Of a stretch of 20,264 bases of DNA, positions 13,511 to 16,154 are shown piece by piece. Source of the DNA: a virus. The position numbers and the translations under genes were made by a program. The notes beneath the pieces are model-generated. The model did not search any database and was not told the origin of the DNA. It was given only the letters and a program-made list of their open reading frames with translations. How positions within the stretch are numbered: the stretch's first letter is position 1; each line of letters opens with the position of its first letter. The stretch spans positions 1 through 20,264 of the IMG/VR virus record IMGVR_UViG_3300021519_000097; one strand, written 5' to 3'.

Positions 13511-13710
13511 TTGACAGGGTTGACAGGGTTGCCACGCGTTTTCCAGGTCGGTACCCTACTCCTTTTATTCTTTTTTTTAAAAAAATAAAAAAAAATAAAA
13601 AGAAGTGTGCCTACTGTGGCACGACCACGCTAAGTCTTTGATTTGTATAGAAGGGACCCAAAAGAAGTGTGGCAATTTGCTGGCAATTTTGACAGGGTTG
13701 ACAGGGTTGC
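13511..13710. repeat. Two blocks of tandem TTGACAGGGT repeats, iteron-like
   Basis: The same 22-base block, TTGACAGGGT twice followed by TGC, occurs at 13511-13532 and 13689-13710, 178 bases apart. Single related copies (TTGACAGGC, CTGACAGGT) are at 14111 and 14159. TTGACA also equals the sigma-70 -35 consensus, so some may serve as promoter parts, but no good -10 follows at 17 bases. The pattern beside an A/T tract suggests initiator binding sites. Confidence 0.6.
13562..13603. other. A/T homopolymer tract, possible DNA-unwinding element
   Basis: About 40 bases of almost only A and T: a run of T followed by runs of A broken by single T residues. It lies between the two TTGACAGGGT blocks. 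Such tracts melt easily and are typical next to iterons at phage and plasmid origins. It could also act as a terminator-like element in either direction. Confidence 0.45.
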
Positions 13711-13725
13711 TAGGGGTAAACCCTA
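13711..13725. promoter_or_regulatory. Imperfect palindrome TAGGGGTAAACCCTA
   Basis: It is the reverse complement of TAGGGTTTACCCCTA and is thus nearly the same as the palindrome at 14434 and similar to the one at 17143. It follows the second TTGACAGGGT block directly. Likely a shared protein-binding site. Confidence 0.45.
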
Positions 13726-13839: not shown

Positions 13840-13991
13840 GCACCAAAATGGTGCACAGTAAGTGAGCGCTCACTAGCACACAGGCTATGTAAGTGAGTAC
13901 TCACTGGGGCGGTGGCACTAAGTAAGTGAGTACTCACTGGGGCGGTGGCACTAAGTAAGTGAGTACTCACTGGGGCGCACCAACTTGGTGC
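13840..13991. repeat. Array of four 14-bp palindromes framed by two dyads
   Basis: Perfect palindromes AGTGAGCGCTCACT (13861-13874) and AGTGAGTACTCACT (13892-13905, 13925-13938, 13958-13971). The last three belong to a 33-bp tandem unit starting at 13889, 13922 and 13955. At both ends sits a 6-bp dyad GCACCA-NNN-TGGTGC (13840-13854 and 13977-13991). The symmetrical layout and helical-turn spacing point to cooperative binding by a dimeric regulator or replication initiator. The first palindrome contains GTGAGCGCTCAC, the core of the symmetric lac operator. Confidence 0.75.
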
Positions 13992-14475: not shown

Positions 14476-14687
14476 AGTATTTATTGGAAGGGCGGGGCTA
14501 ATCCCCGCAGGCGCAAGCGGTCAGGCGGTTCATGCAGTAACGAAACCAACAGTCCCACCGAGCGGTGCCCGCCTCACAGGCGTAACCTGTGCGTGCCGAC
14601 TTAAAGTACCTAGCACGCTAATCATGAGGCAAGCCTAGTGGATAGAAACGCACTAGAGGTGGGATGAGGAAGTGCTCAAGACCACAA

Positions 14688-14882
14688 CAGTAGCGCAGTA
14701 GGCTACGGTATTACCAAGTAGGAATGAGGAAACCACCGCCGTATAGCAGTTCCGAGTATACATTGGGGTATAAAGGGGTCACGGTAACAAGCGAGTCAGC
14801 CCCCTAACAAACAGACCGAATAGTCTTGGCTAAGAGTGTGGACTCGCATATCCACTTAATACCGTAGCCCACTGCGCTACAG
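14688..14882. repeat. 26-base inverted repeat, arms 143 bases apart
   Basis: The arms are 14688-14713 and 14857-14882; 24 of 26 positions are complementary. Each arm also contains its own small GTAGC/GCTAC hairpin, so local and long-range pairing are mutually exclusive. This could be a switch or the closing helix of a large RNA domain. Confidence 0.75.
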
Positions 14883-14883
14883 A

Positions 14884-14930
14884 TAGTAGTGCTCAAAGCG
14901 CATTGATACAGTGCGCTTGAGGCAGTACTA
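14884..14930 (+). other. 47-base hairpin before the first rightward gene
   Basis: TAGTA/TACTA, TGC/GCA, TCAA/TTGA and GCGCA/TGCGC stack to 17 pairs around a 9-base loop, with one G-G mismatch and two single bulges. It ends 13 bases before the AAAGGA ribosome-binding site of the gene at 14958, so it could shape translation or protect an RNA 3' end. Confidence 0.6.
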
Positions 14931-14957
14931 ACCAACCAACATAAAGGAATACATACC

Positions 14958-15212
14958 ATGGCAAACTTTACATTCTTAAAATTAATTGACTTACAAAAAA
15001 CAGTTCCACTTGCATTACTGCCTGAGAAACTAGGCAATGATGTATATACGTGGCAAGTAGGTGACACAGACGTGCTAGAGTACAACACAAAGACAAAGCA
15101 GTTTAAGTATGAAATATATGATTTCATCGACGACGATTACCAATTGGTTAAAACACTTGACCATAAAGACGCACAGTTAATCGCGTACGCTGAGAACATT
15201 ATTTACCAATAA
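14958..15212 (+). CDS. Small early protein, function unknown
   Basis: An 84-residue protein, the first gene of the rightward block. It is acidic with several aromatic residues (NDVYTWQVGDTDVLEYN, YEIYDFIDDDYQLV). The ATG has AAAGGA at nine bases in the leader AAAGGAATACATACC, a form repeated before other rightward genes. It has no signal peptide or membrane segment. Its stop lies three bases before a hammerhead ribozyme, so its mRNA probably gets a defined 3' end by self-cleavage. No family is recognised. Confidence 0.75.
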   Translation: MANFTFLKLIDLQKTVPLALLPEKLGNDVYTWQVGDTDVLEYNTKTKQFKYEIYDFIDDDYQLVKTLDHKDAQLIAYAENIIYQ

Positions 15213-15215
15213 ACA

Positions 15216-15268
15216 AGTCGAAACAGTCTCCGGACTGTCTGCACGTGAGGCGTGCACTGATGATGACT
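15216..15268 (+). ncRNA. Type II hammerhead ribozyme, copy 1
   Basis: All core elements are present in type II order. Stem II 5' strand AGTC (15216-15219) comes first, then GAA (15220-15222). Stem III is ACAGTC/GACTGT with a TCCG tetraloop (15223-15238) and includes the A15.1-U16.1 pair. The cleavage-site C17 is 15239. Stem I is TGCACG/CGTGCA with loop TGAGG (15240-15256), followed by the core CTGATGA (15257-15263). After one extra U, GACT (15265-15268) closes stem II. Cleavage is expected between 15239 and 15240, in the gap between two genes. Established knowledge: type II hammerheads occur in phages and metagenomes. Stem II is short (4 bp) and the extra U after A9 is unusual, so activity is not certain. 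Confidence 0.88.
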
Positions 15269-15287
15269 AACCAATGGAGATTTTAAT

Positions 15288-15860
15288 ATGCCAATTTTTG
15301 TGCACGACTTTGAAACAAAAACCAACACGCCAACATATGTTGGACTTGTAGTATCCATGTTTGAAGAAAACGGCTATCACGACAGCGACTTTTTCGCGAT
15401 GGTTTGGGACGCCGAAACTAAATCCCTCAAGCGCGTTTTGTATGACACCACACGCGGTGCAATGTACGGCGGTGCCTGTGTTGACGCGACGCCTGAAGTA
15501 CTCGCTGAAGTTGAGGCAATGCGTGAGCGCAATCGCGCAGACTATAATGCTAGGCGCGCTGAGATTCAAAGCAGACGCGCTGAAAAAGGCGTCCTAGCAT
15601 CTGTGAGAGGATTAAAAGGCAAACACTCCGGACTCAACGGCGCTTGGGGTAAGGTGTTTTGGACGGGTGGTGACAAGTTCGGTTCTAAATACTCTATTCG
15701 TGTGGGTATTGAAATCAACGGCACCAAGCACTTTGTTAGTGGTCTCAATGTATTTGTCGACGGTTCAGATAAATCCGCACAGGACGTTGAGCAAGAGTGG
15801 AATATAGTTCAAAAAGTCGCCTGTGCAGTCGCAACGCACTCACGCGGTTATTATAATTAA
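15288..15860 (+). CDS. 190-residue early protein flanked by hammerhead ribozymes
   Basis: A soluble protein without recognised catalytic motif. The N-terminal half (VHDFETKTNTPTYVGLVVSM, FFAMVWDAETKSLKRVLYD) is beta-like. A charged helix follows (about residues 70-100, EVEAMRERNRADYNARRAE). The C-terminal half begins with GLKGKHSGLNGAWGKVFWTG and continues SIRVGIEINGTKHFVSGLNV, a Gly-rich pattern reminiscent of small SH3/KOW-like barrels; this is a weak inference. GGAGA lies 8 bases before the ATG. The gene is bracketed by two self-cleaving ribozymes, so a 647-base RNA carrying just this gene could be released from the polycistronic transcript. Confidence 0.8.
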   Translation: MPIFVHDFETKTNTPTYVGLVVSMFEENGYHDSDFFAMVWDAETKSLKRVLYDTTRGAMYGGACVDATPEVLAEVEAMRERNRADYNARRAEIQSRRAEKGVLASVRGLKGKHSGLNGAWGKVFWTGGDKFGSKYSIRVGIEINGTKHFVSGLNVFVDGSDKSAQDVEQEWNIVQKVACAVATHSRGYYN

Positions 15861-15862
15861 CA

Positions 15863-15915
15863 AGTCGAAACAGTCTCCGGACTGTCTGAGCGTGATGCGC
15901 TCACTGATGATGACT
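15863..15915 (+). ncRNA. Type II hammerhead ribozyme, copy 2
   Basis: It has the same architecture as copy 1: AGTC (15863-15866), GAA (15867-15869), stem III ACAGTC/GACTGT with TCCG loop (15870-15885), and cleavage C at 15886. Stem I is TGAGCG/CGCTCA with loop TGATG (15887-15903), then the core CTGATGA (15904-15910), one extra U and GACT (15912-15915). Compared with copy 1, two adjacent stem I pairs changed in a compensatory way (C-G to A-U, A-U to G-C), while core and stem III are identical. That covariation is strong evidence for a functional RNA. It starts 3 bases after the stop codon of the upstream gene; the next ribosome-binding site GAAAGGA lies 9 bases past the end. Confidence 0.9.
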
Positions 15916-15935
15916 AACAACCTGAAAGGACTACC

Positions 15936-16154
15936 ATGTTACCAAAGCAATTACTTAGAGATAAAACCGTCATGGACATGATGTTAAAGATAACCACAGA
16001 CGACTTAAAAGAATACGCCAACACAACAGACAAGCAAGTGTTCGTCACGGACTTGTTTGACTGCTCAATTAGTGACAGGTTCATTAACGTATACGAGCAG
16101 ATAGTCATTGACTTGTGCGACGCCAACAACATAACCATCAATTGGAAGGACTAA
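15936..16154 (+). CDS. Small early protein, function unknown
   Basis: A 72-residue, mostly helical protein (LLRDKTVMDMMLKITTDD, then VFVTDLFDCSISDRFINVY). The ATG is preceded by GAAAGGA at a good distance, just past the second ribozyme. After cleavage this gene would be the first on the downstream RNA, with a leader of about 50 bases that still holds the ribozyme's 3' half. The overlap-free neighbour at 16156 starts one base after its stop codon. No family is recognised. Confidence 0.72.
   Translation: MLPKQLLRDKTVMDMMLKITTDDLKEYANTTDKQVFVTDLFDCSISDRFINVYEQIVIDLCDANNITINWKD

Follow-up and report, generated by a model that had tools for sequence, protein, structure and literature searches.

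The stretch of DNA analysed here, hereafter the window, is a virus record of 20,264 bases. Its minus strand encodes the terminase and the capsid together with a 964-aa ORF, which we take for the portal by its position only, and its plus strand encodes many small genes from position 14958 on. The nearest named relatives of the terminase are found in a spring-water siphovirus (MW202545.1, 52.6%) and in Caulobacter phages (~41-42%; 42.1% for Caulobacter phage RW), and a DNA search of the 6.9-kb region against annotated phages gave no match. The minus strand also encodes a long collagen-like protein with GYSG-type triplet-like repeats (1-2145), which is probably a tail or fibre protein. The gap between the two divergent gene blocks holds four tandem repeats of 31-33 bp (13854-13983) with the palindrome GTGAGTACTCAC (GTGAGCGCTCAC in one of them), which are candidate operator sites, as well as repeated TTGACAGGG units at 13511-13548 and 13680-13717.

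Three genes on the plus strand concern us here, i.e. a gene of 84 codons (family F4, 14958..15212), a gene of 190 codons (15288..15860) and a gene of 72 codons (family F16, 15936..16154). The product of the 190-codon gene matches phrog_30881 (E 9.2e-11) and has partial relatives in phages of Rhodococcus, Caulobacter, Salmonella and Burkholderia; no relatives were found in viral contigs, no match in Pfam and nothing significant among solved structures. This gene was called early in the earlier note, a label suggested only by the layout of the genes, its cluster being divergent from that of the structural genes. The leader upstream of F4 (14480-14945) resembles an uncharacterised structured RNA with a folding z-score of -5.88 and no Rfam match, and within it 14640-14945 has a structure shared by 6 phages, in which 27 pairs are changed on both sides.

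The 190-codon gene is bracketed by two hammerhead ribozymes of type II topology on the plus strand, copy 1 at 15216..15268 and copy 2 at 15863..15915, which sit right after two consecutive stop codons as the earlier note had claimed. Copy 1 consists of stem II AGTC/GACT (15216-15219 and 15265-15268), GAA (15220-15222), stem III ACAGTC/GACTGT with the loop TCCG (15223..15238), C17 (15239), stem I TGCACG/CGTGCA with the loop TGAGG (15240..15256), the core CTGATGA (15257-15263) and an extra U at 15264, between A9 of the core and stem II. Copy 2 has the same anatomy 647 nt downstream, with C17 at 15886 and the extra U at 15911. Both copies thus share the stem III loop UCCG, GUC at the cleavage site, the stem I hairpin, CUGAUGA, one extra U and a stem II of 4 bp, and the minimum-energy fold of each is the three-way junction of stems I, II and III. 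The predicted cleavage sites are C15239/T15240 and C15886/T15887, in agreement with the RNA ends (15240 and 15887) and with the 647-nt product carrying only the 190-codon gene that had been proposed before. If both copies cut, this RNA (15240..15886) would comprise a stem I hairpin, a Shine-Dalgarno sequence, the 190-codon gene and a stem III hairpin. The two copies lie in direct repeats of 64 nt (15208-15271 and 15855-15918), which are 91% identical with an identical first half. The core and stem III are the same in both, which in the case of stem III suggests a recent duplication or gene conversion, and in stem I two base pairs are changed in a compensatory manner, one from C-G to A-U and one from A-U to G-C.

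We identified the two motifs using covariance models. Against RF02276 (Hammerhead_II), with its gathering cut-off of 37 bits, copy 1 scored 31.1 bits (E 0.0078, whole-window search) and copy 2 scored 27.9 bits (E 3.3e-4, 121-nt search). The earlier note had named scores below threshold in both copies as a refutation, and both are formally below it. Our analysis indicates that these scores reflect the divergence of a lineage which has no pseudoknot, and not a false match. Both copies share with RF02276 the topology with closed stems I and III and an open stem II, and the order CUGANGA ... GAAA ... UH; they have the features of the hammerhead class, i.e. the core CUGANGA, GAA with A15.1-U16.1, and a cleavage-site H that is not G. 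In neither copy does loop I form a Watson-Crick pseudoknot with the 3' tail, and the extra U separates stem II from A9, which it directly follows in the usual hammerhead consensus. This extra U does not disqualify them from the class, since such a deviation is already known in nature: the plus-strand hammerhead of Chrysanthemum chlorotic mottle viroid also has an unpaired extra nucleotide directly after A9 (PMC3705267), although it is an A in the viroid and a U in the window, and the context of the viroid is unrelated.

A pattern search of IMG/VR yielded 69 stretches of DNA with related motifs, and a lineage covariance model (R1) was built from 26 copies. R1 gave 82.4 bits (E 3.5e-20) and 80.5 bits (E 1.1e-19) for copies 1 and 2, scores that are partly by construction since both copies are among the 26 training rows, and the next best hit in the window had 12.3 bits (E 0.23). 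MW202545.1 and Caulobacter phage RW gave no match to R1 in the stretches examined. Two pattern matches in bacterial genomes (L076 and L077) have no stems and look like chance.

The structure of these ribozymes is under selection, as the earlier note had claimed, and the evidence is the covariation across the family. An alignment of the 26 copies by MAFFT has 413 of 413 pair cells paired, 64 of them changed on both sides. With 48 distinct copies, 99.9% of the pair cells are paired and 138 are double-changed compared to 31.6 in shuffles, with covariation in all three helices, and the signal is destroyed when the partners are slid; this larger alignment leans towards the model since it was fitted to it, a bias of which the MAFFT alignment is free. 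Because the search pattern required GAAAC, CACTGATGATGAC and the inner pairs of stem II, and fixed much of the core in the 26 seed copies, conservation at these positions is partly by construction. Independent evidence comes from the positions of stems III and I outside the pattern and from the outer stem II pair, which changes from G-C to A-U. Among the copies found by the model only, the core varies at N7 (T/C/A), at the cleavage-site H (C/A, never G) and at the extra U, and this variation is restricted to places where hammerheads tolerate change. The two stem I changes between the window's copies had been read before as direct evidence of selection; the changes are real, as is the identity of core and stem III, but taken alone they are weak evidence because other phages have the same two stem I hairpins (GCACG and GAGCG), which could be swapped whole by recombination.

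The window's copies belong to a phage sub-lineage that has a U inserted after A9 and UNAKG as loop I and lacks a Watson-Crick pseudoknot. Both copies share the extra U with 43 of 46 distinct relatives, and the other three lack it. Members of this form have a 4-bp stem II, the tail AA and five bases in loop I, which is UNAKG in most of them, and the complementarity between their loop and tail is that of shuffled tails (46 distinct copies), so that we rejected a Watson-Crick pseudoknot for the sub-lineage. In 39 of 41 copies of the other form, loop I is complementary to the 3' tail over 4-6 Watson-Crick pairs, clearly more than shuffled tails give. By analogy with other hammerheads, the window's form presumably relies on non-canonical contacts between loop and tail. 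Six hammerheads of the pseudoknot type lie within 1.8 kb in one record (L038, 11310-13072), all above the Rfam cut-off with 37-47 bits, and five of the six match a pattern demanding the extra U. As they score above the cut-off with the same U, the missing pseudoknot and tail consensus, rather than the extra U, are the likely reason for the low Rfam scores of the window's copies. A ribozyme of the same lineage with a long stem III was also found in a contig of the cultured strain Burkholderia sp. LMG 13014 (L073, 1791-1872), and this contig is probably a prophage.

The placement of the ribozymes relative to the genes is regular. They lie on the same strand as the genes, and in the sub-lineage stem II mostly begins 0-5 nt past a stop codon and an ATG with a Shine-Dalgarno sequence mostly follows 13-25 nt beyond the ribozyme (a few near-duplicate contigs included in these counts). 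The stop codon of an ORF with at least 40 codons is found in the 12 nt ahead of 30/32 copies of the sub-lineage and of 48/65 of the pseudoknot type (78/97 with both forms pooled), compared to 8.6% of random positions on the same strand. A Shine-Dalgarno sequence and an ATG are found downstream of 25/32 and 45/65 copies, respectively. The window's form is present in one to six copies per whole record, which cluster in a segment of ~1.2 kb, or of 3.2 kb in one case, and the window, like other phages with arrays, has two or more hammerheads around a single gene. The search with R1 found no further copy in the rest of the window's plus-strand gene cluster, so segmentation of the transcript would be confined to the first few cistrons. 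On a consensus scan we found no plus-strand terminator-like site at either copy and no plus-strand promoter match between them, so that neither an intrinsic terminator nor an own promoter of the bracketed gene is suggested and both copies should lie in one transcript. One minus-strand terminator-like site overlaps stem III of copy 1.

Gene and ribozyme are gained or lost together. The two related contigs L080 and L081 carry flanking genes 95.3% (F4) and 97.7% (F16) identical to those of the window with a single ribozyme between them, where the window has F4, ribozyme, 190-codon gene, ribozyme and F16; the 190-codon gene with one ribozyme thus behaves as a presence/absence cassette. Upstream of its ribozyme L080 shares the flank of copy 1, whereas the paired part of stem I and the flank downstream are those of copy 2, as expected if the gain or loss came by recombination within the repeat. 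L080 has one more ribozyme elsewhere, beside genes absent from the window.

The repeats could also act mainly as DNA, homologous recombination at gene borders adding, removing or swapping small genes while cleavage is secondary or incidental. The 91% identity of the window's repeats with their identical first halves would fit this explanation, and so would the difference between L080 and the window, which is exactly one gene and one repeat. F4 is directly followed by a ribozyme in all eight contigs that carry it (seven distinct phages), with a next gene of a different family in each distinct phage, and F14 always has a ribozyme upstream, with three different genes before it. Ribozyme borders kept the same next gene in 1 of 26 comparisons and other borders in 58 of 244, a difference whose Fisher p of ~0.02 overstates the evidence since the comparisons share phages and F4 dominates them, and for which the gene families came from BLASTP on short proteins, so that remote relatives may be missed. 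However, ribozyme-free borders also turn over strongly (186/244 differ), and selection for homology would conserve the sequence, whereas stems I and III change freely with their pairing kept. We consider recombination as the main role of the repeats to be rather unlikely.

We propose instead that the hammerheads act in cis and cut the mRNA cistron by cistron, insulating genes that are often swapped, and we give this reading a probability of roughly 0.6. Hammerhead cleavage leaves a 2',3'-cyclic phosphate on the upstream RNA and a 5'-OH on the downstream RNA. Each copy would cut the common plus-strand transcript of the cluster just after C15239 or C15886, turning its promoter-proximal part into single-gene RNAs, and a double cut would free the 647-nt mRNA. 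At copy 1 the upstream RNA would be closed at its 3' end by the stem III hairpin, and the downstream RNA would start at the stem I hairpin with a 5'-OH. Each RNA in general would begin with a 5'-OH and a stem I hairpin, ~30 nt ahead of the Shine-Dalgarno sequence, and end with a stem III hairpin and a 2',3'-cyclic phosphate, if the known chemistry applies. If one transcript spans the leader and the ribozymes, the cut at the first hammerhead would also part the leader RNA and F4 from the rest. The likely benefit of such cutting, which we infer to take place in infected cells, would be insulation and separate stability of small, often exchanged genes: as each gene would bring its own processing site, its mRNA ends, stability and translation would be independent of its neighbours.

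Activity of this kind is known elsewhere. Perreault et al. (2011) report that tandem hammerhead arrays of three bacteria cut in vitro and that one of them cut in E. coli, and also that 4 of the 18 consensus-matching hammerheads tested were inactive (PMC3088659). Counting against our reading is the weak stem II in its native context, with a pair probability of 0.72 for copy 1 and of ~0.00 for copy 2 when flanks of 400 nt on each side are folded in a model without tertiary contacts, and so does the limitation to the first few cistrons. Nor does the model suggest that cleavage unmasks the Shine-Dalgarno sequence, which becomes less accessible at copy 1 and hardly changes in this respect at copy 2.

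We also speculate that a pseudoknot-free ribozyme and its gene could form a natural plug-in expression cassette, with cleavage timed by upstream translation and swapped genes arriving already insulated. With a stop codon only 0-5 nt away from its stem II, the hammerhead would lie within the footprint of a ribosome terminating on the gene upstream, and it would also border the region where translation of the next gene is initiated. Such a cassette, unlikely as we judge it, would correspond in nature to synthetic ribozyme insulators and would in addition sense translation.

Two further explanations compete with processing of the mRNA. The motifs could be decaying or selfish leftovers with no present role for the phage, for which one could cite the copy number of 1-6 and the two weak copies among the relatives (34.4 and 27.8 bits), i.e. 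L007 (634-706), with a tail like that of the pseudoknot form, and L045 (7423-7502), with a damaged core, which may be a decayed ribozyme. A later review, according to which such ribozymes flank small ORFs of no known function, calls the role of prokaryotic hammerheads an open question (PMC6155905). Yet purifying selection acts on the core and the pairing across 46 distinct copies, the spacing to stop and start codons is near-constant and decayed copies are rare, all of which make this explanation quite improbable. That the 647-nt RNA is circularised after a double cut by an RtcB-like ligase or the reverse ribozyme, giving a stable circular mRNA as in plant retrozymes, is very improbable: two co-oriented hammerheads would release an RNA whose 5'-OH and 2',3'-cyclic phosphate ends match and retrozyme circles measure 600-1000 nt (PMC6155905), but the piece here is a protein gene with its own Shine-Dalgarno sequence and stop codon, several relatives (some of them fragmentary records) show one ribozyme and could release no circle, and Perreault et al. 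describe a search for spliced or circular products of bacterial arrays in which none was found (PMC3088659).

Several known systems resemble the arrangement in the window. The hammerhead of the haloviruses HF1/HF2 (HHphage) is likewise close to a gene, 13 nt upstream of an early-gene start codon, with a transcript 5' end no more than 3 nt from its cleavage site (PMC3088659); it has a variant core, its hosts are archaeal and it does not form a pair around one gene. RiboJ, a self-cleaving ribozyme used as an insulator upstream of a reporter gene, increases the abundance of the transcript ~twofold and the amount of protein two- to tenfold when used in E. coli (PMC6206723), an analogy of working only, since RiboJ is engineered and placed at the transcript start. 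Plant retrozymes also have hammerheads bracketing a few hundred nucleotides (PMC6155905), but these retroelements encode no protein, and their hammerheads are of type III and lie in long terminal repeats, whereas the window has a protein gene of a DNA phage, type II hammerheads and 64-nt repeats.

The closest system is that of the prophage arrays, for which Perreault et al. describe groups of hammerheads that flank single genes or short blocks of genes and propose processing into single-gene mRNAs (PMC3088659). The window is thus a variant within a known arrangement. It differs from those arrays by the extra U, by scores below the Rfam cut-off and by the absence of the pseudoknot between loop I and the 3' tail, which is typical of type II hammerheads and is found in the majority, not all, of them according to the same study, and also by the presence or absence of gene and ribozyme between close phages, although the two datasets may overlap. 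Since the pseudoknot-free form is missed by the Rfam cut-off, hammerheads in phage metagenomes are probably under-counted. The role of hammerheads in phages becomes testable with this lineage, which offers dozens of copies, placed regularly between a stop codon and a Shine-Dalgarno sequence, and a pair of close phages whose difference here is exactly one gene and one ribozyme. Compared to the known arrays, what is new here is a pseudoknot-free, extra-U lineage under the Rfam threshold and a natural presence/absence pair that ties a gene to its ribozyme.
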